This document shows positions 40,357 to 51,210 of a stretch of 64,000 bases of DNA, piece after piece. The translations under genes were made by a program, and so were the position numbers. The DNA lies in contig NZ_JABCQG010000003.1 of assembly GCF_015244565.1 (NCBI RefSeq), forward strand, positions 124,001 to 188,000. The letters run 5' to 3'. This stretch comes from Gluconobacter vitians (lineage in GTDB: Bacteria > Pseudomonadota > Alphaproteobacteria > Acetobacterales > Acetobacteraceae). The notes beneath the pieces are model-generated. The model was not told the DNA's origin. It searched no databases and saw only the letters and a list, made by a program, of their open reading frames with translations. Position 1 is the stretch's first letter, and each line of letters opens with the position of its first letter.

Positions 40357-41829
40357 ATGCTTTCAGTGATTTTCGATTCCCTTCCAGCCTTTTCTGCGGA
40401 TGCGCCCAAGGCTGTCGTTCTGTTGTGTGACGTGGCCGCTGGCGAGATTTTCGCAGCGCTGGACAAGGCTTCGGCGGGGGCGGTTTCGCGCGCTGTTGCG
40501 CTGAAGGGGTTCAGGGGCGAGGCCGGGCAGAGCGTGGTGCTTCCGGCGCCGGCCGAAGGGCTGTCGCAGATCGTGCTCGCTGGTGTAAAACCCAAGGGTG
40601 GGGCTGCTGTGGATGCCGTGGCCATCGAGAACGCTGCGGGTCGGGCCGTTCGTCTGCTGGATGGTGTCGAGGGCGCGGTTCTGGCGCTTTCCGAAGGGCT
40701 GGAGCAATTTGCTCCGGACGCGGCTCTGGGCGCGCGTCTGTCGTCCTATGATTTTGATCTGTACCGCACGAAAAAATCCGACAGCCGTCCGGTTCTGAAC
40801 AGGCTGCATGTTGCGGTCTCTGATGTTGCGGCAGTGCAGACGCGGTGGGCGGCTCTGGATGCGGTCTCGCATGGTGTGATCCTGACGCGGGATCTCGTGA
40901 GCGAGCCGCCGAATGTGCTTTATCCTCAGACCTTTACGCAGCGTATCGAAGAACTGCGTGAACTTGGCCTGACGGTTGAAGTTCTCGACGAAAAGGCCAT
41001 GACGGAGCTGGGCTTTGGCGCGCTTCTGGGTGTGGCGCAGGGCAGTGTGCACAAGCCGCGCACGGTGATCGTCCGTCATAATGGTGGTGGCAGCGAGGCG
41101 CCTCTGGCCTTCATCGGCAAGGGCGTGACCTTCGACAGCGGTGGCATTTCCATCAAGCCTGCGGCCGGTATGGACGAAATGAAGACCGATATGGGTGGCG
41201 CTGCGACCGTGATCGGTCTGATGAGCACGCTGGCCCGTCGCAAGGCGCCGGTCAATGCGATCGGTGTGGTCGGCCTGGTTGAGAACATGGTGTCCGGCGG
41301 GGCGCAGCGTCCGGGCGATATCGTGCGGGCTTATGACGGCCAGACGATCGAGGTTCTCAATACCGACGCGGAGGGACGTCTCGTTCTGGCGGATGTCCTG
41401 TCCTACACGCGGACGCGCTTCAACCCGAAGCTGATGGTCAATCTGGCGACGCTGACGGGTGCGATCGTGGTCAGCCTTGGCTACGAGAATGCCGGTCTGT
41501 TCAGCAACAGCGATACGCTGGCGAAGGGTCTGGCCGAGGCCGGGGCGCAGGTTGGGGAAGGTCTGTGGCGGATGCCGATGGGCGAGGCCTATAATCGCCA
41601 GATTGATTCCGATATCGCGGATATGAAGAACATTGGCGGTCGTCCGGGCAGTGCGATCCTGGCGGCCGAGTTCCTCAAGCGCTTCGTGGGCGACACGGAC
41701 TGGGCGCATCTGGATATCGCGGGCACGGCCTGGAAGACCAAGGCGTCCGCTATTGCGCCGAAGGGTGCCACGGGCTTTGGCGTTCGTCTGCTGGACCGGT
41801 TTGTGAAGGCGCACGAAGCCAGCGCCTGA
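40357..41829 (+). CDS. pepA: Leucyl aminopeptidase (M17)
   Basis: This cytosolic two-metal aminopeptidase, 490 residues, is normal length for M17. The N-terminal macro-like domain is followed by the catalytic domain with IGKGVTFDSGGISIKPAAGM (metal Lys and Asp), MKTDMGGAA, and the signature NTDAEGRLVLADVLSY (Asp and Glu ligands, catalytic Arg). Near the end, GRPGSAILAAEFLKRFVG is typical. AGGA lies upstream of the ATG. In E. coli the homologue also acts in DNA recombination and carAB regulation; whether that applies here is unknown. It is followed by holC after 16 bases, as in many bacteria. Confidence 0.97.
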   Translation: MLSVIFDSLPAFSADAPKAVVLLCDVAAGEIFAALDKASAGAVSRAVALKGFRGEAGQSVVLPAPAEGLSQIVLAGVKPKGGAAVDAVAIENAAGRAVRLLDGVEGAVLALSEGLEQFAPDAALGARLSSYDFDLYRTKKSDSRPVLNRLHVAVSDVAAVQTRWAALDAVSHGVILTRDLVSEPPNVLYPQTFTQRIEELRELGLTVEVLDEKAMTELGFGALLGVAQGSVHKPRTVIVRHNGGGSEAPLAFIGKGVTFDSGGISIKPAAGMDEMKTDMGGAATVIGLMSTLARRKAPVNAIGVVGLVENMVSGGAQRPGDIVRAYDGQTIEVLNTDAEGRLVLADVLSYTRTRFNPKLMVNLATLTGAIVVSLGYENAGLFSNSDTLAKGLAEAGAQVGEGLWRMPMGEAYNRQIDSDIADMKNIGGRPGSAILAAEFLKRFVGDTDWAHLDIAGTAWKTKASAIAPKGATGFGVRLLDRFVKAHEASA

Positions 41830-41845
41830 GGAGCGGGATAACGCC

Positions 41846-42289
41846 GTGGATGTCGGGTTCTATCATCTGACGCGCACGCCGCTTGAGCAGGCGCTTCCGG
41901 CCCTACTGGGCCGGACGCTGGATGCGGGGGAGCGTGCGGTCGTGCGATGCCCGGATGCGGCTGCGGTCATGGCGCTGGATGCGGCGCTTTGGGCGTGCCG
42001 GGATCCGGTCTGGCTGCCGCATGGCACGGCAAAGAGCGGCCATGCGGCCCGGCAGCCGATCTGGCTGACCGAAGGCGAGGACGTACCGAACGAGGCACGG
42101 TTTCTGTTTCGGGTAGATGGCGCGGGGAGCGATGAATTCGCGCCCTTTACGCGGATTTTCGATCTGTTTGACGGTGGAAATCCGCAATCCGTTCAGCGGG
42201 CAAGAGAACGCTGGGTCGCGATGAAATCTTCTGGTCACAATCTCGTGTACTGGAAACAGGAAGAGCGGGGCTGGAAAAAGGCGGGGTAA
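41846..42289 (+). CDS. holC: DNA polymerase III subunit chi
   Basis: Chi links the clamp-loader complex to single-stranded-DNA-binding protein. This 147-residue protein starts at a GTG preceded by GAGGAGCGGG. It shows the HolC pattern: DVGFYHLTRTPLEQALPALL at the N-terminus, then VWLPHGTAKSGHAARQPIWL and the C-terminal RIFDLFDGGNP with ARERWVAMKSSGHNLVYWKQ. The pepA-holC pairing supports the assignment. Confidence 0.93.
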   Translation: MDVGFYHLTRTPLEQALPALLGRTLDAGERAVVRCPDAAAVMALDAALWACRDPVWLPHGTAKSGHAARQPIWLTEGEDVPNEARFLFRVDGAGSDEFAPFTRIFDLFDGGNPQSVQRARERWVAMKSSGHNLVYWKQEERGWKKAG

Positions 42290-42373
42290 GGTTTCAAATT
42301 GTGTCTGAAACCATTGATGGAAGACGCTCCGTAACCGGAGTGCCGTTCATTGCACTGGAGAGGACGCCCGACT

Positions 42374-43498
42374 GTGCCAGACCCCATGACTTCTTCCCCC
42401 GCATCTCCGAAAACTGACCTTCGCCGCGTCGATATCAATCCCGACTTCTGGTATCCGCTGGCCTGGTCGAAGGATCTCAAGCGCGGCAAGACGATCGGGC
42501 GGCGGTTCGGGCGCTTTCCCATTGCACTGGTGCGGCCCGAGGAAGGGAGCGTCTTTGCACTTGAAGACCGCTGCGCGCACCGTCAGGTTCCGCTCAGCCT
42601 CGGCAAGGTCAGCGGTGAGGCGGTTCAGTGCTGTTATCATGGCTGGGCTTATGGCCGCTCCGGGCGGTGTATTGATGTGCCGTATCTGGGGAAGGGCAAG
42701 CTGCCGAATGGTGTGAAGACGTATCCCTGTCGTGAGGCAGGCGGCATGATCTTCGTTTTCCCTGGTGATGCGAGCAAGGCGGAGAGCGTGCCTCTGCCGC
42801 CGCTGGCACAGGTGAACAATCCGGCGTTCAAGACACGGCATTTCAGTCCGGTCGTGAAATGCCACTACACGTTCCTGCATGAGAACCTGATGGACATGAA
42901 CCATCAGTTCCTGCACCGCCGTCAGATGGGGCAGATCAAGGCGCGTTTTCTGGGGCAGGACGCAGGCGAGAACTTTATTGAGGCACGGTACAGCTTCGCG
43001 CGGACGGGAAACCAGCAGCCGCTGGCGGAACGTCTGATTTTCGGCAAGCATCACGATGATCCGAACCGGGAGCAGCCGGTCGAGGAAATCGTCAGCATCC
43101 GCACGACCTATCCGTATCAAAGCCTGAAAATCCACGACAAGGATGGCGATCTGATCATGGAGCTGTTCAGTGTTTATGTTCCGAACACGGCGGACGGGAT
43201 GAGCACGCAGACTTTCGGTCTGCTGTCGGTACTGCGGCCGAAGACGCCGTTCCTGATTGATTTGATCTGGCCGGCGCTGGGCATCTTCACGCACAGGATC
43301 TTTGAAGAAGACCGCGAAATCATGGAACTGGAGCAGAACGCCTGGCGTGAACTGGGCGGCGATCATAACGTTGAGGTCTTCCCGATCGTGCGGAAATTGC
43401 GGGATCTTCTGGCGGCCAATGGTGTGGCGCCGGGAACGGATACGACGGCACAGGCTGAAGTTTCGAGGGAACAGCCGGCTGATCCTGTCGTTGTCTAA
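42374..43498 (+). CDS. Rieske 2Fe-2S non-heme iron oxygenase
   Basis: This oxygenase alpha-subunit-type protein has about 374 residues. The Rieske cluster ligands are in RCAHRQVPL and CCYHGWAYG (C-x-H and C-x-x-H). The C-terminal half is the helix-grip domain binding mononuclear iron, with NLMDMNHQFLH as the likely His-His part of the facial triad. I start it at GTG 42374, nine bases after GGAGAGGA; ATG 42386 is possible. The substrate is unknown; relatives include VanA-like demethylases and other ring hydroxylases. No dedicated reductase lies nearby. An aldo/keto reductase follows after 21 bases. Confidence 0.88.
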   Translation: MPDPMTSSPASPKTDLRRVDINPDFWYPLAWSKDLKRGKTIGRRFGRFPIALVRPEEGSVFALEDRCAHRQVPLSLGKVSGEAVQCCYHGWAYGRSGRCIDVPYLGKGKLPNGVKTYPCREAGGMIFVFPGDASKAESVPLPPLAQVNNPAFKTRHFSPVVKCHYTFLHENLMDMNHQFLHRRQMGQIKARFLGQDAGENFIEARYSFARTGNQQPLAERLIFGKHHDDPNREQPVEEIVSIRTTYPYQSLKIHDKDGDLIMELFSVYVPNTADGMSTQTFGLLSVLRPKTPFLIDLIWPALGIFTHRIFEEDREIMELEQNAWRELGGDHNVEVFPIVRKLRDLLAANGVAPGTDTTAQAEVSREQPADPVVV

Positions 43499-43519
43499 AG
43501 ACACAGACAGGAAACAGTC

Positions 43520-44365
43520 ATGAAGACAGTCACACTCAGGAATGGTGTTACGGTTCCCGCGCTTGGAATGGGAACCTGGAATGTCGGCGACAGTGCGGCC
43601 CGGCATACGGATGAGGTCGAGAGCCTGCGCAAGGGGCTTGAGGCTGGTCTGCGGGTTATTGATACAGCCGAGATGTATGGCAATGGCCGGTCGGAAAAGC
43701 TGGTGGGTGAGGCCATCGCGGATGTGCGTGATGACGTCTATCTCGTCAGCAAGGTCGTGCCGTCAAATGCGTCCTATGACGGTGTACACAAGGCGTGCCG
43801 GCGTTCGCTGAAGCATCTCGATACGGACTGGCTGGATCTTTATCTGCTGCACTGGCGCGGGGGTACGCCGCTGGAAGAGACGATCCGGGCGTTCGAAGAT
43901 CTGAAGGATGACGGGCTGATCCGTGGATGGGGTGTCTCGAATTTCGATGTCGATGACATGGAGGAAATCGAGAACCTGTCGGGCAACTGTCTGGTCAATC
44001 AGGTGCTCTATAATCTGGAGCATCGCGGAACCGAATTCGATCTTCTGGAACACGATTTGAAGTCCGAAACCGTGACGATGGCCTACTCGCCATTGGGGCA
44101 GGGAGGCGAGCTTCTGGATCATCTGGCGCTCAAGGAAGTGGCATCGCGGCATGAGACGTCGCTTGGCCCGGCGGATACGGCCCAGATCGCTCTGGCCTGG
44201 GTGCTGCGGCGACCGAATATCATGGCGATCCCGAAGGCCGGCTCTCCGAAGCATGTGGCTGGAAATATTGCCAGTCTGGAAATCAGCCTGACGGATGAGG
44301 ATCTCAAAACGCTCGACAGCGCTTTTCCTCCGCCGAAACGCAAGGTATCTCTCGCCATGATCTGA
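43520..44365 (+). CDS. Aldo/keto reductase
   Basis: This is a 281-residue NADPH-dependent TIM-barrel reductase. The catalytic tetrad is recognisable: Asp and Tyr in VIDTAEMYGNGRSE, Lys in LVSKVVPSN, and His in LYLLHWRG. The signature GLIRGWGVSNFD and the C-terminal cofactor segment AIPKAGSPKHVAGN are present. The NADPH-binding loop suggests NADPH preference. AGGAAACAGTC precedes the ATG. It is probably cotranscribed with the upstream Rieske oxygenase, which may indicate a short oxidation/reduction route, but the substrate is unknown. Confidence 0.93.
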   Translation: MKTVTLRNGVTVPALGMGTWNVGDSAARHTDEVESLRKGLEAGLRVIDTAEMYGNGRSEKLVGEAIADVRDDVYLVSKVVPSNASYDGVHKACRRSLKHLDTDWLDLYLLHWRGGTPLEETIRAFEDLKDDGLIRGWGVSNFDVDDMEEIENLSGNCLVNQVLYNLEHRGTEFDLLEHDLKSETVTMAYSPLGQGGELLDHLALKEVASRHETSLGPADTAQIALAWVLRRPNIMAIPKAGSPKHVAGNIASLEISLTDEDLKTLDSAFPPPKRKVSLAMI

Positions 44366-44498
44366 CGGTCGTGGTGGTATGCGGTCCGTTTTCACTTAAC
44401 CTGCGGACCGCGCCCTGCATATTTTCTCCACCCTGTTTTACGCCGATCCGGTATCTCTCTGCCTTGCGGTTCTGGCCATTCCTGCCTGTCTGCAGGCG

Positions 44499-45716
44499 AT
44501 GGAAGCCGGACGCGGGACACGATCGGTGGTTATCTGTATTGCGGCACTGGCTGCGATACTGGCGCTGTCTCCGGCTGTTCTGGCTGTTGCGCTTGGCGTG
44601 ATCGTTGCACAGGACCGGGATGCGTGTCCGGCAGTCTGGACGGTTCCGGCCCTGCTGTTGAGCGTCCTTTTCCCTGCACACACCTTCGTTTTACTAGCCC
44701 TGCTACCGGTTCTGTTCTGGTCTTCGCTTGTGCGACGGCGGGACGGGATCTGTCCTGCCGGCATGAGTATTCTCGGCGTCTCGCTGATCTGGCATGCGCC
44801 TTCGGCAGTTCCGGCAGAACTTGTGGCCGGTCTGGGGGCTGCGGTGTGCGGGCTGGTTGGCTGGTCCGTTCTTGGGGCGTCCCGCCCCGGAAATCTGGGG
44901 CTTTTGCGGCCAGTTCTTCTGATGGTTTTGGTCGTGGCGGCGCAGGCCGAAAGCCTTGCGGTTTGCGCGCGGATCGCGCTGGAGGCGCTGCTTCTTGATC
45001 TGGCGCTGCTGGTGCTTACGGCTGCATTGGGACAAAAATTCCCTGTGCTTGCCGTGCTGCGTCTGCCGTTCCCGCTCTTGCCCGGACTGGTTGTGCTGTG
45101 GCTCGGGATTCATGCGGCTCTTGGCATGGCGGCGGGCGTGGAGGGCTGGAGCGTCCTTGGCATGGTTGTCGCTCTGCTGCTTGGGCTTTTGAGCCTCTCG
45201 AACATTCTGGAAGTGGGAAGCCTGTTCCTTGCGCGACGTGAAGTCGTTTCAGGCACATCTGTTCTGCTGCTGGGTGCGGGAAGTCTTCTCATGCCCGCTC
45301 TTGTGTTTGGACTGACGAGCCCTGTGCTGCACGCCATGGGGGGAGAGTGGGTCTGGCCCGTCTGGAGCATCGGTGCGGGGGATGGGGCGCATCTGCTGCT
45401 GCCAGCGTTCATTCTGACTGGTGCGGGGATCTGGATTGTTCTTGTGCGACCCTGGCGGGTTATGGGTGGTGTGGTGCAGGCGGCATCCCTGCTTGTGCCA
45501 GCGCTCGGGAAACTGCTGACGATCGGGGATGGGCTGTTTGACGAGGCGCCTTCCCTGAACTGGATGCTGCGTCGTGTCATCGCGGGTGGGCGGCTGCGTC
45601 TCCGAGGTTTGCGGAATATGAGGGCGCCCGTGCTTCCTGATCTGCGTCAGGGTGCTGTCGGACTCTGGCTTGTGCTGCTCGGTCTCGTCCTGGCGGTGCT
45701 GGGAGTGATGGCGTGA
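44499..45716 (+). CDS. Short antiporter-like membrane subunit (HyfB position) of a hydrogenase-4-like complex
   Basis: This 405-residue, almost entirely hydrophobic protein has roughly 10-12 predicted helices. It occupies the HyfB position. The segment PFPLLPGLVVLWLGIHAAL resembles the P-x-x-x-F-x-x-K-W-L-L region of Mrp/NuoL-type subunits, but the usual lysine is missing, and HyfB is about 670 residues. Charged residues inside helices are scarce. The ATG at 44499 is the first in-frame ATG/GTG; the frame is open back to 44400 and the extra codons encode another hydrophobic helix, so a non-standard start (for example CTG 44415) is possible. The next gene's ATG shares one base with its stop. 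Family assignment rests mainly on operon context. Confidence 0.6.
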   Translation: MEAGRGTRSVVICIAALAAILALSPAVLAVALGVIVAQDRDACPAVWTVPALLLSVLFPAHTFVLLALLPVLFWSSLVRRRDGICPAGMSILGVSLIWHAPSAVPAELVAGLGAAVCGLVGWSVLGASRPGNLGLLRPVLLMVLVVAAQAESLAVCARIALEALLLDLALLVLTAALGQKFPVLAVLRLPFPLLPGLVVLWLGIHAALGMAAGVEGWSVLGMVVALLLGLLSLSNILEVGSLFLARREVVSGTSVLLLGAGSLLMPALVFGLTSPVLHAMGGEWVWPVWSIGAGDGAHLLLPAFILTGAGIWIVLVRPWRVMGGVVQAASLLVPALGKLLTIGDGLFDEAPSLNWMLRRVIAGGRLRLRGLRNMRAPVLPDLRQGAVGLWLVLLGLVLAVLGVMA

Positions 45717-46585
45717 TGGCGCATGAGATCGGGATGGTCCTGCTGGCGATGCTGGAGGCGCTCTTTCAGCTGGGCCTGCTTCTTGTGCTGGCGCCTGTTA
45801 TCGGATGGTGTCTGGATGATCTGCCGTTCCTGCTGACTGGACGAACGGTCGGGCCGGTGCGGTTTCGTCTTCTACAGGCCGGGCGCTTCTGGAAAACATT
45901 GTTCCGCGCTCCGCTGGGTGGGCGACCAGCGCTGGCGTTGACGGCTGGCATTCTGACGCTTCTGTGCCTGCCTGCGGTCACGACAGGATCGGTCTTTTCG
46001 TCTCTGGCGGACCCGCTGGTCATCGGGCTGGTGGTTTTGCTGGGACGCGGATTTGTGGGGCAGAGTCTGTTGCCGGGTGAGGCGGGGCGGTTCATCCCTG
46101 CCGTTCTGCTGCTGTGCCTGACCGAGGCGCTGATTGCGCTGGCAGCTCCGGGAACGGATGGGCTGGGAGGCTTGTGTGCAATGCTGCATATCGAACCGGA
46201 GCCTGGTCTGGAAGGCGCGCTTGCCGCCTGTGCCCTGGCGCTGGGGATCGCGTGTCCTCCCCTGCGGGCGCAGGATGTCACGGGAATGCTGTCCGGCATC
46301 CGGGACCGACAGGAGCGTGAGGCCGCCCGGAGCATTGCCGATGTGCTGAACTGTAGCTGGCTGCTTCTACTGTCCGATCTGGCACTGCCGGTGAGTGTTG
46401 GGCTGGCGCAGGGCGGTGTACAGGGCTGGTGGATGGGGCTGGTGGCTCTGGTCGGGCGTCTGGCGCTGACGGTTGCGGTGGCGGTTGGGCTGCGGCTCAT
46501 GGCGCAGGAGCGGAGTGCACGTCTGACGGCCCTGTTTGCAGGTGTTGCGCTTCTGCTGGCTCTGGCGGGGAGGTTCGGCACATGA
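45716..46585 (+). CDS. NuoH/HyfC-like membrane subunit
   Basis: This 289-residue membrane protein sits at the HyfC/HycD position (complex I subunit 1 family). The loop after the first helix, LLTGRTVGPVRFRLLQAGRFW, resembles the family segment around G-R-x-G-P-x-x-x-x-Q-x-x-x-D-x-x-K. The conserved acid is replaced and the region is divergent. About eight helices are predicted. ATG 45716 shares one base with the previous stop; its own stop overlaps the next start by four bases. NuoH-type subunits form the membrane anchor for the hydrophilic module; whether ion transfer is retained here is doubtful. Confidence 0.65.
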   Translation: MAHEIGMVLLAMLEALFQLGLLLVLAPVIGWCLDDLPFLLTGRTVGPVRFRLLQAGRFWKTLFRAPLGGRPALALTAGILTLLCLPAVTTGSVFSSLADPLVIGLVVLLGRGFVGQSLLPGEAGRFIPAVLLLCLTEALIALAAPGTDGLGGLCAMLHIEPEPGLEGALAACALALGIACPPLRAQDVTGMLSGIRDRQEREAARSIADVLNCSWLLLLSDLALPVSVGLAQGGVQGWWMGLVALVGRLALTVAVAVGLRLMAQERSARLTALFAGVALLLALAGRFGT

Positions 46586-47103
46586 TCGTCGGGTTTGGAT
46601 TGCTGCTGCTTCTGGCGCTTGCGGGGCTGGGCAAGGATGGGCGGGGTTTGCCGCTCTATGGGGCGGTCTGCGCTTTTGCAGGGGCGACAGTCTGTTCGGG
46701 GCTGATGGCGCTTCTGACGTCTGTGGCGCTGATCGGGCTGAATGGTCTGGCCTGGGCATGGCTGCGGCGGTTTGCGGCGGAAGCGCCGGACCGGGCGGCT
46801 GTCCTGCCGGTTGTGGGGACGCTTGTGCTCCTGCTGGCACTTGGGCTGTCCGGTGCGGGACTTGGACTGGCGCCGGTTCTGGGCGCGGGCGCGGTTCTGG
46901 CCGGGCTGTGTGGTGCGGCATGGGGCGCGCCGCTGGTGCAGTTCACCGGTCTGCTGCGGGCTGCGGACGGGCTTATTGTCGTGTCCTGCGTTCTGCATTC
47001 CTGGCCGCTTTTCATGGCGGCTCTGAGCCTTTGGGGCGTGCTGGCGGCCCTTGGCGTCACGCTTCTGCCGCGTCTGGCCTGGCGTCGGGTGGAGGAGGTC
47101 TGA
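46582..47103 (+). CDS. Small HyfE-like membrane subunit
   Basis: This 173-residue membrane protein has about five to six helices (IVGFGLLLLLALAGLGKDGR; VLPVVGTLVLLLALGLSGAG; ADGLIVVSCVLHSWPLFMAA). Its position between the HyfC-like and HyfF-like genes matches HyfE. Sequence resemblance is weak and the call is mostly contextual. The ATG overlaps the previous stop (ATGA) and its TGA shares a base with the next ATG (TGATG). Confidence 0.55.
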   Translation: MIVGFGLLLLLALAGLGKDGRGLPLYGAVCAFAGATVCSGLMALLTSVALIGLNGLAWAWLRRFAAEAPDRAAVLPVVGTLVLLLALGLSGAGLGLAPVLGAGAVLAGLCGAAWGAPLVQFTGLLRAADGLIVVSCVLHSWPLFMAALSLWGVLAALGVTLLPRLAWRRVEEV

Positions 47104-48191
47104 TGCATCCGCTTGCCCCGATCGGAACGCTGTTTGCCGTGACCGTCTGGCCGCTTCTGGCGGCGTTTCTGCTGCTTCTGACGCCTGAAAACCGTCAGGC
47201 CGCCAGCAGTCTGACTTTTGCCGTGGCTGGACTGGTTATCACACCGCTGGCTGTCTGGCTGATGCCGGGAACGGACGCACTGGCGGCAGCCTGTTCGTGC
47301 ATCGTGACGGCCATTCCGCTTTTACTCCCGCCAGCACAGGACCGGACCGGCCGGGTTCTGCCATTTCTTGTCACGGGCTGTGCGCTTCTGGCGCTGAACA
47401 TCCATTCGGCCTTTGCCGTGACTGTATTGTGTGGTGCGGGCACGGTTCTTCTGGCCTGGCGGGAAGGTCGGGGGCGGCGGAAGGCTCTGGTCGTGTGGGA
47501 CATCGCGCGCAGCAGGCTGGGTGGCGTCGTGCTGGGGCTTCTGGGGGCGTCGCTTCTGCCAATGCCGCAGTCCTCGCTGGGGGCGGTATTACTGACGGTC
47601 GGGCTGTGCATGGTGGCGGGACTCGGGCCATCGCCTGCGCCTGCACCCGAGGCGGCTCTGCTGGATACAGGGCTGCGGTTTTCGGCGCTGATGCTGATGT
47701 TTCGTCTGAGTGCGTATCCGCTGGTTCATCTGCTGATGCTGATCGCGGGGTTCGGAACGATCCTCATGCTGGTGACAGCGCGCTCCTCCGGCCGGGTCGT
47801 CTCACTGCCGATGTTGTCTGCGTTCGGTGCGCTGGCCGCGGCGACCGGGGAAGGGACGGAAATCGTTCTGCTGCTGCTGGCAGCACTGGGGCTGGCCGTT
47901 CTGGATCTGCGCGGTGCCGAGGGGACTGATGCGATTGCGGCGGGGGCTGCACCCTGGCCGGTGTTCTGTGCGCTTGTTGGCATCGGACGCTCGCTTGAGA
48001 CGGGGCAACTGATTCTGCTGATCGTATGCCTGCTCCCGGTTCTGTGGTTGGTGCGTCCTGCGACGCTTCTGCCGGCGTTCGGGCGTGGAGAGCGCGGCAT
48101 GGTGGCCGTGATGCAGGCGGTTCTGCTGCTGGGAGGGCTGTGCGGGCCGCTGTTTCTTGCCTGGCATCCGATGACGGGATGGCGGCCATGA
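47103..48191 (+). CDS. Short antiporter-like membrane subunit (HyfF position)
   Basis: This 362-residue polytopic membrane protein has around 10-11 helices and occupies the HyfF (NuoN/Mrp-like) place in the operon. HyfF is about 520 residues and carries membrane-embedded Lys/Glu residues for proton transfer. Here the helices contain very few ionisable residues (for example AEGTDAIAAG and VGIGRSLETGQLILL in the second half). MHPLAPIGTLFAVTVWPLLA is the N-terminus. A longer open frame upstream overlaps the previous gene and is not the start. The stop overlaps the next ATG by four bases. Confidence 0.55.
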   Translation: MHPLAPIGTLFAVTVWPLLAAFLLLLTPENRQAASSLTFAVAGLVITPLAVWLMPGTDALAAACSCIVTAIPLLLPPAQDRTGRVLPFLVTGCALLALNIHSAFAVTVLCGAGTVLLAWREGRGRRKALVVWDIARSRLGGVVLGLLGASLLPMPQSSLGAVLLTVGLCMVAGLGPSPAPAPEAALLDTGLRFSALMLMFRLSAYPLVHLLMLIAGFGTILMLVTARSSGRVVSLPMLSAFGALAAATGEGTEIVLLLLAALGLAVLDLRGAEGTDAIAAGAAPWPVFCALVGIGRSLETGQLILLIVCLLPVLWLVRPATLLPAFGRGERGMVAVMQAVLLLGGLCGPLFLAWHPMTGWRP

Positions 48192-49627
48192 GAAGCATGG
48201 GACGGATCATTCGCAGTGGCGAGCGGGTCGCGCTGTCGCATTATCATCTTGATCCCGCGCAGTGGAGCGAGATGCTGACGGCGCCGGGAACGACGCTGCC
48301 GCTGATTTCCTGCTGGGCGGATGATGCCCGCGCTTACGTGCTTCTGTTGGAGGGGGACTGTCCGCTTCTGGCGAGTACAATCGTGGAAGACCGGCGCTAT
48401 CTTGCCCCGTCCTCGCGCTTTGCCGGCGCGGAATGGGGCGAGCGGGTGTCATATGATCTTTACGGCGTGGAAGCGATGGATGCCCGTGGGAACGGGGCTC
48501 CCGCGCTGGATGAAGGGGGCTGGACCTCGACCTGGCCGCTGTCCTCCCGTCCCGGACCTGCGGCAGGTGGGTTGCGGCCGCTGGCTGGGAGTCATTTGCT
48601 GCGTCCCGAGCAGACCGGACTGAGTGGCCCGCTGGAATTGTCCTTTGAGGTTCTGAAGGGGAAAATCCGGGACGTGGAGGTCTGCGCCGGGGCCGCGCAT
48701 CGCGGTCTGGTAGCCCGGCTGGTAGGAAAGACGCCGGAAGAGGCGATGCCGCTGGTGTCGCGTGTGACGGCGGGCGGGTTTGTGGCGCATCCGCTGGCTT
48801 TTGCCCGGGCCGTCGCACAGGCGCGCGGGCTGGTTCCGGGACCGGGGATCCGGGATGTCTGGATGATCCTGCTGGAGATCGAGCGGATCTCGATCCATCT
48901 GTTCGACATGGCGCGGACGGCACGCGGCGTGGATGCGGAGCTTCTGGCGACCCATTGCGATCATGCGCGGGAGGCGATTGCGAGGGCCTGTTCGGAGCAG
49001 GGTGTTTCGCGTCGGCTGATGGATATGGTGACCTGTGACGGGTTTCGCGACGGGCTGGAAATCGTGCCACTGGCGCAGGCTGTCCATGCGGCCATGCAGC
49101 CGCGTCTTGCGGCGCTGGAAGAGCTTCACCGGGTTTTTGCGCCGCGTCTGGACGGGGTCGCGACGCTGGATGCGCGACTGGCGGAGTGTTTTGCCGTGGG
49201 GGGCGTGACCGGGCGTGCGAGTGCTCGCAGCATGGACATGCGGCGGCGGGAAGCCGGGATGCGGCTGGAGGCATTGCGGGCGACGGGTTCGAGCCGGGGA
49301 GATGCCCGGGCGCGCGAAGGGCTTCGGCTTGCGGAAATCCGGGATTCGCTGGCGCTGATGGAGCGTATTCTGGGAAGTATCGGTCTGGAGGATGATGAGC
49401 CTGCGCCGGACCGGACGGAAGAAGGGATCGGTGTGGCTGAAGGCGCGCGCGGAGACGTCTGGTACTGGGTACGTCTGAAGGACGGGCGGATCGAAAGCCT
49501 GCATGTCCGCGATCCCGGCGTTTCCCTGCTGCCCGTTCTGGGAGCGATGCTGCGGGGTTACGCTGTCGATCGCGTTCCGGCGGCGCTGGGCTCGATCGGG
49601 CTGTCACCGGCGGGGATTGCGTTATGA
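48188..49627 (+). CDS. HyfG/NuoD-like large subunit lacking NiFe ligands
   Basis: This 479-residue soluble subunit fuses a NuoC-like N-terminal domain (to about residue 150) with a NuoD/hydrogenase-large-subunit domain. Alignment by eye to HyfG/HycE is good around AAHRGLVARLVGKTPEEAMP and IRDVWMILLEIERISIHLFD. The first metal motif (R-x-C-G-x-C..H) reads R192-V-T-A-G-G-F-V-A-H201 and has no cysteine. The second (D-P-C-x-x-C) is replaced by GSIGLSPAGIAL at the C-terminus. The NuoD quinone-loop histidine is also not evident. It cannot bind a NiFe centre. Start and stop overlap both neighbours (ATGA), so the gene is maintained in an operon. Confidence 0.8.
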   Translation: MRSMGRIIRSGERVALSHYHLDPAQWSEMLTAPGTTLPLISCWADDARAYVLLLEGDCPLLASTIVEDRRYLAPSSRFAGAEWGERVSYDLYGVEAMDARGNGAPALDEGGWTSTWPLSSRPGPAAGGLRPLAGSHLLRPEQTGLSGPLELSFEVLKGKIRDVEVCAGAAHRGLVARLVGKTPEEAMPLVSRVTAGGFVAHPLAFARAVAQARGLVPGPGIRDVWMILLEIERISIHLFDMARTARGVDAELLATHCDHAREAIARACSEQGVSRRLMDMVTCDGFRDGLEIVPLAQAVHAAMQPRLAALEELHRVFAPRLDGVATLDARLAECFAVGGVTGRASARSMDMRRREAGMRLEALRATGSSRGDARAREGLRLAEIRDSLALMERILGSIGLEDDEPAPDRTEEGIGVAEGARGDVWYWVRLKDGRIESLHVRDPGVSLLPVLGAMLRGYAVDRVPAALGSIGLSPAGIAL

Positions 49628-50109
49628 GCGGTGTGAGACGCGCAGGGCCTTTGAGCCTGCTTTATGCGTTCATGGATGCGACACGCTGGCGTCCGTCCAT
49701 GCAGGAAACGGCTCCGCGCCGGGAGCGTCCCATCGGGCTGTATGTGCTCGAGACCGGAGGGTGCGAGGGCTGCTTCATGGAAATCGAGTCTCTGAACGGG
49801 AGTGCCTTTGCGCTGGAGCAGGCCGGGTTTGTCTGTGTGACAGATCCGGCGGATGCGGACTGGCTGCTGCTGACGGGGGCCGTGACACGGGTCTGTGCTG
49901 AAATGGTGGACCGGGTGTGGCGGGCGATGCCACCGGGAAGATGCCTGATTGCGGTAGGGGCCTGCGCGGTGGATGGCGGCCCTTTTCCGGCCGGTTATGC
50001 GACGCTGGGCGGATTGCAGGCCCTGACGCCGGTGCGGCGTTCGATTGCGGGGTGTCCGCCATCGCCGGAAGACCTGCTGCGGGCCTTGCAGGAGCTTGCG
50101 CGGGGCTGA
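49624..50109 (+). CDS. HyfI/NuoB-like iron-sulfur small subunit
   Basis: This 161-residue protein matches the NuoB/HyfI/HycG small subunit carrying the proximal [4Fe-4S] cluster. Four cysteines are in the expected places: C47 and C50 (GGCEGC), C114 (VGACAVDGG) and C144 (IAGCPPSPEDLLRAL). It is the best-conserved member of the operon. The ferredoxin-like HyfH gene normally found just before HyfI is absent, so the route of electrons to this cluster is unclear. Its ATG overlaps the upstream stop. No hyp maturation genes or protease lie nearby. Confidence 0.85.
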   Translation: MSGVRRAGPLSLLYAFMDATRWRPSMQETAPRRERPIGLYVLETGGCEGCFMEIESLNGSAFALEQAGFVCVTDPADADWLLLTGAVTRVCAEMVDRVWRAMPPGRCLIAVGACAVDGGPFPAGYATLGGLQALTPVRRSIAGCPPSPEDLLRALQELARG

Positions 50110-50274
50110 AGTTCCTGTCTGCAGGCCGGAATTTTCCTGAAACAACGAAGTTTTGTCCCCGGACGACTTGCCGTAACACGGTTTCGCGTTAAAGCAGACG
50201 GACGCACTGGGTGCGTTTTCCATGAGGTTCGGTCGCCTGATACTCAGGTCACCGTATAGAGCACAGGGCTAGAG

Positions 50275-51210
50275 ATGGCTGATTATCGCCTTGGAATTGA
50301 TCTTGGTGGCACGAAGATCGAAATCGCGGTTCTGAATCGTTCGGGCGATCTCGTCCTGCGTGAACGCATTCCCAACCCCGGCATCTATAATGAAGCCGTG
50401 CTGGCCATTCGTGATCTGGTCACGGATGTGGACCACCGTCTGGGTGCGGTGCCGAGCCATCGCGTCTCGGCAGGGCAGCATACCTCCACGCTGGGTATCG
50501 GAATTCCGGGCTCCATCTCGCCCGAGACCGGTCTGATCAAAAACGCCAATGCGACCTGGCTGAACAACCAGCCTTTCGGTCATGATCTGGAATCCGCGCT
50601 TGCGCGTCCGGTCCGGACGGAAAATGACGCGAACTGCTTTGCGCTGTCCGAAGCGGCCGATGGCGCGGCCAAGGGTATGCTGACGGTGTTCGGTGTCATC
50701 ATCGGCACGGGCATGGGTGCGGGTATCGTCAATAACGGTCGCGTTCTTGAAGGACGTCACCACATTGCGGGCGAATGGGGTCATCTGCCTCTGCCCTGGC
50801 CGACGGAAGAAGACATGCCTGCGCGTGACTGTTTCTGTGGGAACAAGGGCTGCATGGAGCGCTATCTGTGCGGTCCGGCTCTGGCGGCAGACTGGAAAGG
50901 TCCGGGTCACCGTAACACGGCCGGGATCGAGGATGCGGCGGCCAATGGCGATCAGGCCGCGATTGCCGCTCTGGGCCGTTATACCGAGCGTTTTGCCCGG
51001 GCCTGCGCGATGGTCATCAACTTCCTTGATCCGGATGTGATCGTGCTCGGTGGCGGCGTGTCCAACCTGCATACGCTGTATGAGCGCGTGCCGCCGCTTC
51101 TGGCCAAGCATGTGATCACGCCGGTCTGCACGACGCCGATCGTGCGCAACAAGCATGGCGACAGCTCGGGCGTGCGTGGCGCGGCATGGCTGTGGGATGT
51201 GACGGAGTAA
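50275..51210 (+). CDS. ROK-family sugar kinase (fructokinase-like)
   Basis: This 311-residue cytoplasmic kinase has the ATP-phosphate motif GIDLGGTKIEIAVL and the ROK zinc signature CFCGNKGCMERYLCGPAL. Sugar-contact residues are in NDANCFALSEA and GEWGHLPLPWP, the latter typical of bacterial ROK fructokinases such as Mak. Fructose or glucose is the likely substrate, consistent with sugar entering the pentose phosphate pathway. AGGGCTAGAG precedes the ATG. The gene stands alone and ends at a strong hairpin. Confidence 0.9.
   Translation: MADYRLGIDLGGTKIEIAVLNRSGDLVLRERIPNPGIYNEAVLAIRDLVTDVDHRLGAVPSHRVSAGQHTSTLGIGIPGSISPETGLIKNANATWLNNQPFGHDLESALARPVRTENDANCFALSEAADGAAKGMLTVFGVIIGTGMGAGIVNNGRVLEGRHHIAGEWGHLPLPWPTEEDMPARDCFCGNKGCMERYLCGPALAADWKGPGHRNTAGIEDAAANGDQAAIAALGRYTERFARACAMVINFLDPDVIVLGGGVSNLHTLYERVPPLLAKHVITPVCTTPIVRNKHGDSSGVRGAAWLWDVTE

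Follow-up and report, generated by a model that had tools for sequence, protein, structure and literature searches.

How complex I couples redox chemistry to proton pumping has long been a question, and an operon from Gluconobacter vitians, a species of a genus in wide industrial use, raises it in an unusual form: what might a complex I-like membrane assembly do once both its catalytic metal site and its pumping residues seem to be gone? The operon, of hyfBCEFGI type, lies at 44499-50109 on the plus strand of the window, the 64,000-nucleotide stretch of contig NZ_JABCQG010000003.1 analysed here. Our comparisons indicate that its lineage no longer has the known equipment for H2 chemistry, ordinary quinone protonation and pumping, and that the site of one iron-sulphur cluster stays under selection. 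Because the metal site and the pump residues appear lost, yet the genes and one iron-sulphur cluster are kept, a non-pumping job is probable. Whether all of one branch of acetic acid bacteria has retained a complex I relative that was stripped of its proton pump and catalytic metal site and now works, without pumping, as an iron-sulphur relay or sensor is, in our judgement, nearly an even call. The narrower reading that we favour, more tentatively, is that the operon encodes a derived, repurposed complex I relative of the Ehr (energy-converting hydrogenase-related) lineage, which would serve as a non-pumping electron relay with a single [4Fe-4S] cluster at the membrane.

Six open reading frames (ORFs), all intact and at the positions originally predicted, make up the operon, and successive genes are joined by start/stop overlaps, ATGA at C/E, F/G and G/I and TGATG at B/C and E/F. 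The HyfB and HyfF proteins are reduced in length by about one third. The genes are as follows.

44415..45716, plus strand: hyfB-like, a shortened antiporter-like membrane subunit of NuoL/HyfB type, with its annotated ATG at 44499 and a likely non-ATG start at about 44415.
45713..46585, plus strand: hyfC-like (NuoH/HycD type), starting at GTG 45713 or ATG 45716.
46582..47103, plus strand: hyfE-like, by dN/dS (the ratio of nonsynonymous to synonymous substitution rates) the best conserved of the six.
47103..48191, plus strand: hyfF-like, a shortened antiporter-like membrane subunit of NuoN/HyfF type from which the canonical pump residues are gone.
48188..49627, plus strand: hyfG-like, a large subunit of NuoC-NuoD/HycE type without the nickel-iron (NiFe) cysteines, the catalytic-loop acid or the canopy aspartate.
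49624..50109, plus strand: hyfI-like, a small subunit of NuoB/HycG type with the CxxC...C...CP cluster ligands C47, C50, C114 and C144.

The two soluble subunits have clear relatives. HyfG matches Complex1_49kDa (PF00346) at 4e-11 and, weakly, PF00329 (0.11), and in Pfam terms is a NuoC-like part fused to a NuoD-like part; HyfI, which is NuoB-like, matches Oxidored_q6 (PF01058) at 1.3e-23. They also match the NuoD and NuoB models, respectively, and their nearest solved structures are subunits 5 (HyfG, 2.7e-8) and 7 (HyfI, 3.1e-20) of E. coli formate hydrogenlyase. Among named relatives of HyfG, the nearest comes from G. roseus, with 97% identity. The original prediction had likened the set to Hyf and complex I and had named the four HyfI cysteines; the profile searches bear this out, placing HyfG within the NuoD/hydrogenase family and not outside it, and all four cysteines are present.

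The membrane subunits HyfB, HyfC, HyfE and HyfF returned nothing above the curated cut-offs in Pfam or NCBIfam, nor did their four counterparts in Acetobacter fallax (L050). We tie them to Hyf proteins on the grounds of position, iterated hidden Markov model (HMM) searches and profile comparison, and in the case of HyfF also of predicted fold. Iterated HMM searches joined the window's HyfC to the HyfC of all 60 loci that we compared, including the true formate hydrogenlyase L088, and its HyfF to rows (L072, L075 and L081) that are reached from E. coli HyfF too, while the search from HyfE took in HyfE rows of Ehr loci. Profile comparison against E. coli-seeded sets gave probabilities of 98.7% for HyfB, 99.2% for HyfF and 99.5% for HyfC; HyfE reached just 26% against the HyfE set, a weak link, and hhalign against single NuoL, NuoM, NuoN, NuoH and NuoK sequences gave no match. 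The best AlphaFold2 (AF2) model of HyfF has a predicted local distance difference test score (pLDDT) of 74, with 44-48 for the other four models, and a predicted template modelling score of 0.80. Searched with Foldseek against the PDB, it gave 15 matches at E <= 0.001, all of them complex I or Mrp antiporter subunits, and the predicted fold matches NuoN/NuoM. The AF2 model of HyfB was poor (pLDDT 51), with no meaningful fold match.

Could the complex be a hydrogenase? We rejected this reading, as the NiFe cysteines, HypD and HycI are all absent. None of the four metal-ligand columns of HyfG holds a cysteine, in agreement with the original prediction, and genome-wide searches for HypD and HycI gave no match, consistent with the predicted lack of maturation genes (the search did not extend to HypA, B, C, E and F). 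PF00361 antiporter subunits and NuoF likewise went unmatched in the genome, whose sole NuoD-family match is HyfG itself. E. coli hydrogenase-4 and formate hydrogenlyase (Hyf, Hyc) have homologous B, C, E, F, G and I in identical order, but the window operon differs from them in the absence of HyfA, D, H and J as well as of the NiFe cysteines. Relative to respiratory complex I, the genome has no NADH module, as the NuoF family is absent, HyfI carries a CxxC where complex I has tandem cysteines, and the aligned quinone-ligand His of NuoD (b1-b2 loop) and its canopy Asp are missing in HyfG.

Ehr is a described class with a function that is unknown or proposed to be ion pumping (PMC6349859 and PMC10284858, in the parts available). 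Like the window complex, it combines a large subunit, a homologue of group 4 hydrogenase/NuoD that lacks NiFe cysteines, with a small subunit that has the proximal [4Fe-4S] ligands, and the window HyfG groups with Ehr large subunits in our tree. Moreover, L080, an ordinary Ehr locus from the same bacterial family, has its B-C-E-F-G-I genes in an equally tight run, so the novelty does not lie in gene content: the absence of HyfA, HyfD and HyfH stands, but not as the special trait for which it had been taken. The mycobacterial Rv0082-Rv0087 set may be a similar unit. Within the open-licence PMC literature, a scope outside which subscription papers and preprints lie, we found no paper on this operon in Gluconobacter or other acetic acid bacteria, which speaks weakly for its novelty.

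The identical gene order of L080 and the clear homology would suit an ordinary Ehr of the kind proposed for the class, an ion pump that is driven by redox chemistry on an unknown substrate. Residue counts across canonical, intermediate, basal and derived rows speak against it. In these counts gaps are scored as absence of the residue, and the derived group includes 18 Gluconobacter loci, so that its rows are non-independent; the 37-row derived counts for HyfG and HyfC hold one duplicate (L051 = L049), which was dropped, together with a misassigned row (L071, really HyfB), from the HyfF counts (36 derived, 8 basal and 8 canonical rows). Among the HyfB rows, L038 is cut by a contig end, and L036 has no HyfB.

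In the four NiFe columns of HyfG, cysteine occurs in none of 37 derived, 8 canonical Ehr and 5 intermediate rows, and a single stray one is found among the 9 basal rows. The Glu of the catalytic b1-b2 loop is present in 8/8 canonical Ehr rows, 0/9 basal and 0/37 derived, and the canopy Asp is gone from all Ehr-type rows compared, canonical ones included; the proton-donating loop acid and the canopy Asp are both described as key in the superfamily (available part of PMC9474812). Along the E-channel of HyfC, Glu146 is found in 9/9 canonical rows (L088 included), one of nine basal and none of 37 derived, and Glu210 in 9/9 (L088 again included), 0/9 and 0/37; Glu218 is retained in four of the 37 derived rows. 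Five HyfF residues (E143, K232, H239, K351 and H347) are present in all eight canonical rows and in 0/8 basal and 0/36 derived rows, free of gaps. H246 (4/8 canonical) and E406 (7/8) are likewise absent from all basal and derived rows, with 31 and 21 gaps, respectively, among the derived, and E248 falls from 7/8 canonical to 1/8 basal and 2/36 derived. Overall, seven of eight proton-transfer sites of HyfF stand at 0/36 derived and 0/8 basal versus 4-8/8 canonical. An alignment-free check agrees: lysine is entirely missing from nine of the 36 derived HyfF rows and from two of the eight basal ones, and the window HyfF has a single one. Seven HyfB sites drop from 8-9/9 canonical to 0/8 basal and 0-4/35 derived.

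Canonical Ehr rows keep the loop Glu, the HyfF pump residues and, in 8-9/9 rows with L088 counted, the E-channel Glu residues, whereas the window lineage has lost them and is shorter. Antiporter-like subunits able to carry protons by canonical Lys/Glu/His, a trait of Ehr, are not what we found in this lineage, where HyfB resembles HyfF, in part through gaps. These counts make an ordinary pumping Ehr quite improbable. The novelty, as judged from alignments, is the extent of this further loss, of loop Glu, E-channel Glu and HyfF proton-transfer residues, beyond ordinary Ehr; the original prediction did not include it, and it is the truly unusual part of the locus.

How widely has this form been kept? 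We surveyed 150 genomes spread over the Acetobacteraceae, scoring up to ten candidates per genome, and found a HyfG match in 135, of which 123 were strong (E 4e-10 or better; ordinary Ehr included) and 12 weak, at the level expected of NuoD. The 60 loci compared are 40 regions from 39 surveyed genomes, one window-independent formate hydrogenlyase among them, plus 20 named loci. A midpoint-rooted tree of 49 large subunits, with two E. coli rows added and 14 rows left out as near copies or broken, joins 24 derived rows, the window included, nine basal rows and L089 in a clade with support of 100/99, which sits among the Ehr-type loci of the Acetobacteraceae, with NuoCD, Hyf and L088 apart; the deepest fork, to L074/L083, is weak (62/99). 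Within the acetic acid bacteria the operon mostly occupies one site, with pepA and holC before it and pssA and psd after it, and L089, outside the group, has the same setting. This common setting, L089 included, points to vertical descent.

Strong purifying selection on the six genes is evident. Median dN/dS is 0.181 for B, 0.130 for C, 0.062 for E, 0.100 for F, 0.085 for G and 0.125 for I, all far below 1, alongside 0.031-0.131 for nine flanking genes. Frames for hyfC, E, F, G and I are open in 19/19 Gluconobacter rows, and for HyfB in 18, one being cut by a contig end. Conservation and dN/dS together led us to reject chance or artefactual ORFs. The four cluster cysteines of HyfI are present in 30/30 derived and 9/9 basal rows and, by eye, in six intact copies that have moved. 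In HyfG a charged network away from the metal site is conserved (e.g., H171, R192, E230, R352 and E418 in 37/37 rows). Profile search, tree, dN/dS and cysteine conservation agree with the originally predicted one-cluster, Ehr-related membrane complex that lacks a NiFe site and is under selection.

The position of hyfI varies. In seven genomes it is not downstream of hyfG; it lies elsewhere in all seven, away from the flanking genes searched, and we therefore rejected its loss from these relatives. All 12 genomes checked, these seven among them, carry hyfI. L057 and L058 have a large gene, a 955-956 aa ORF, between hyfG and hyfI.

One derived genome, G126 (L085, L120), has hyfG in three pieces and an unlinked, distant hyfI with one stop, with hyfB, C, E and F open; in G046, of the same genus, hyfG and hyfI are both intact. 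Joint breakage of the two fits a shared function of the soluble subunits. The broken G126 copy, the shortening in steps and a family known for deranged enzymes (PMC10715153, in the part available) could also suggest a slowly decaying remnant with its function gone. Against such a remnant stand the dN/dS values of 0.06-0.18, the open Gluconobacter frames and the 123 strong HyfG matches in the family, and of the readings considered we regard it as the least probable, a very slim prospect.

The complex might be a structural or assembly scaffold that stabilises another membrane enzyme, with electron transfer no longer relevant, and the loss of catalytic and pump residues would accord with this. 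The same bacterial family offers a precedent in a 'deranged' bc1 complex and a COX1-like protein, whose retention after the loss of metal ligands has been attributed to structural roles; like the window complex, these are respiratory complexes retained despite losses (available part of PMC10715153). That part of the paper makes no mention of Ehr or Hyf, and 'hydrogenase' occurs in the whole paper once, for a type 1 hydrogenase. The deranged proteins lost the ligands of their metal centres, however, whereas the window complex lost NiFe, proton-loop and pump residues and keeps its iron-sulphur ligands, and the HyfI cysteines are invariant in the derived rows even where hyfI has moved. Of the 12 genomes checked, nine have a second, NuoB-level match and three (G000, G054 and G118) have none, and the complex is kept in both situations, which indicates a role beyond that of helping complex I. 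We therefore consider a scaffold unlikely, albeit the nearest competitor to the relay.

In the electron relay that we favour, the soluble module of HyfG and HyfI, which carries the ligands of a single [4Fe-4S] cluster, would still be seated on HyfC at the membrane. As the operon has no HyfH (NuoI-type) subunit, the HyfI cluster would be open to a diffusible partner such as a ferredoxin or flavin reductase. Single electrons could then be exchanged, with no proton pumping, between the cluster and a small acceptor that sits in the remodelled pocket and is most likely ubiquinone/ubiquinol, and the membrane part (HyfC, HyfE, HyfF and HyfB) would act as anchor and frame. A cluster site conserved without a catalytic centre, together with the charged HyfG network, might instead be explained by a redox or oxygen sensor, in which an exposed [4Fe-4S] cluster senses and the antiporter fold signals by a change of conformation or controls a small leak. 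The operon, however, contains no regulator or signalling domain, and the genes conserved beside it have housekeeping functions or, in one case, encode an aldo/keto reductase; we consider a sensor improbable.

Several observations weigh against the relay or against the losses on which it depends. In the intermediate Ehr locus L083 (genome G100), HyfI is missing three of its four cluster cysteines, and the iron-sulphur cluster may have been lost there independently. HyfB has a higher dN/dS than every flanking gene, and since two of its sites, E142 and H228, are gaps in 34-35/35 derived rows, it is the weaker evidence for residue loss; the window HyfB also has two lysines in hydrophobic surroundings, and some lost lysines might have been replaced by arginine. 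In E. coli HycC, single changes of several such residues left H2 output undiminished (available part of PMC9474812), so residue loss need not equal loss of all function. With the loop Glu and canopy Asp of HyfG lost, ordinary quinone chemistry in its pocket is disfavoured as well. The decay in G126 implies that the complex is dispensable there. Taking these points together with the rest, we rank the electron relay first, followed by scaffold, sensor, pumping Ehr and remnant.

If the relay or a similar non-pumping role is true, the lineage is a natural experiment in which the complex I redox core has become separated from pumping. With the HyfF fold kept, its proton residues lost and the iron-sulphur module selected, the series from canonical through intermediate and basal to derived forms shows stepwise what the superfamily can spare. 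It also poses a testable puzzle in Gluconobacter, whose genome here holds no other complex I-type enzyme.

Upstream of the annotated hyfB ATG, Gluconobacter species share an in-frame stretch, LHIFxxLFxxDPVSLCLA (44400-44498, plus strand), whose conservation extends to about 44415. On the basis of this conserved reading frame, translation probably begins upstream of ATG 44499, at a non-ATG codon near 44415; the near-start codons in the window's stretch are CTG or ATT only. Scanning 41700-50400 revealed no sigma-70-like promoter, with 1.6 expected from shuffles, and 11 terminator-like matches, with 7.5 expected, an excess that tells us nothing. A Rieske-type oxygenase-like ORF (42362-43498, plus strand), named from its sequence alone, lies between holC and the aldo/keto reductase gene; it occurs in 12 Gluconobacter rows and was not found in L043-L047. 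The reductase gene (43520-44365, plus strand) ends just before hyfB. In 36/60 loci, L089 among them, the operon is preceded by a homolog with the same orientation, which is absent near other loci such as L053-L058; the reductase may be co-transcribed with the complex or be its partner.
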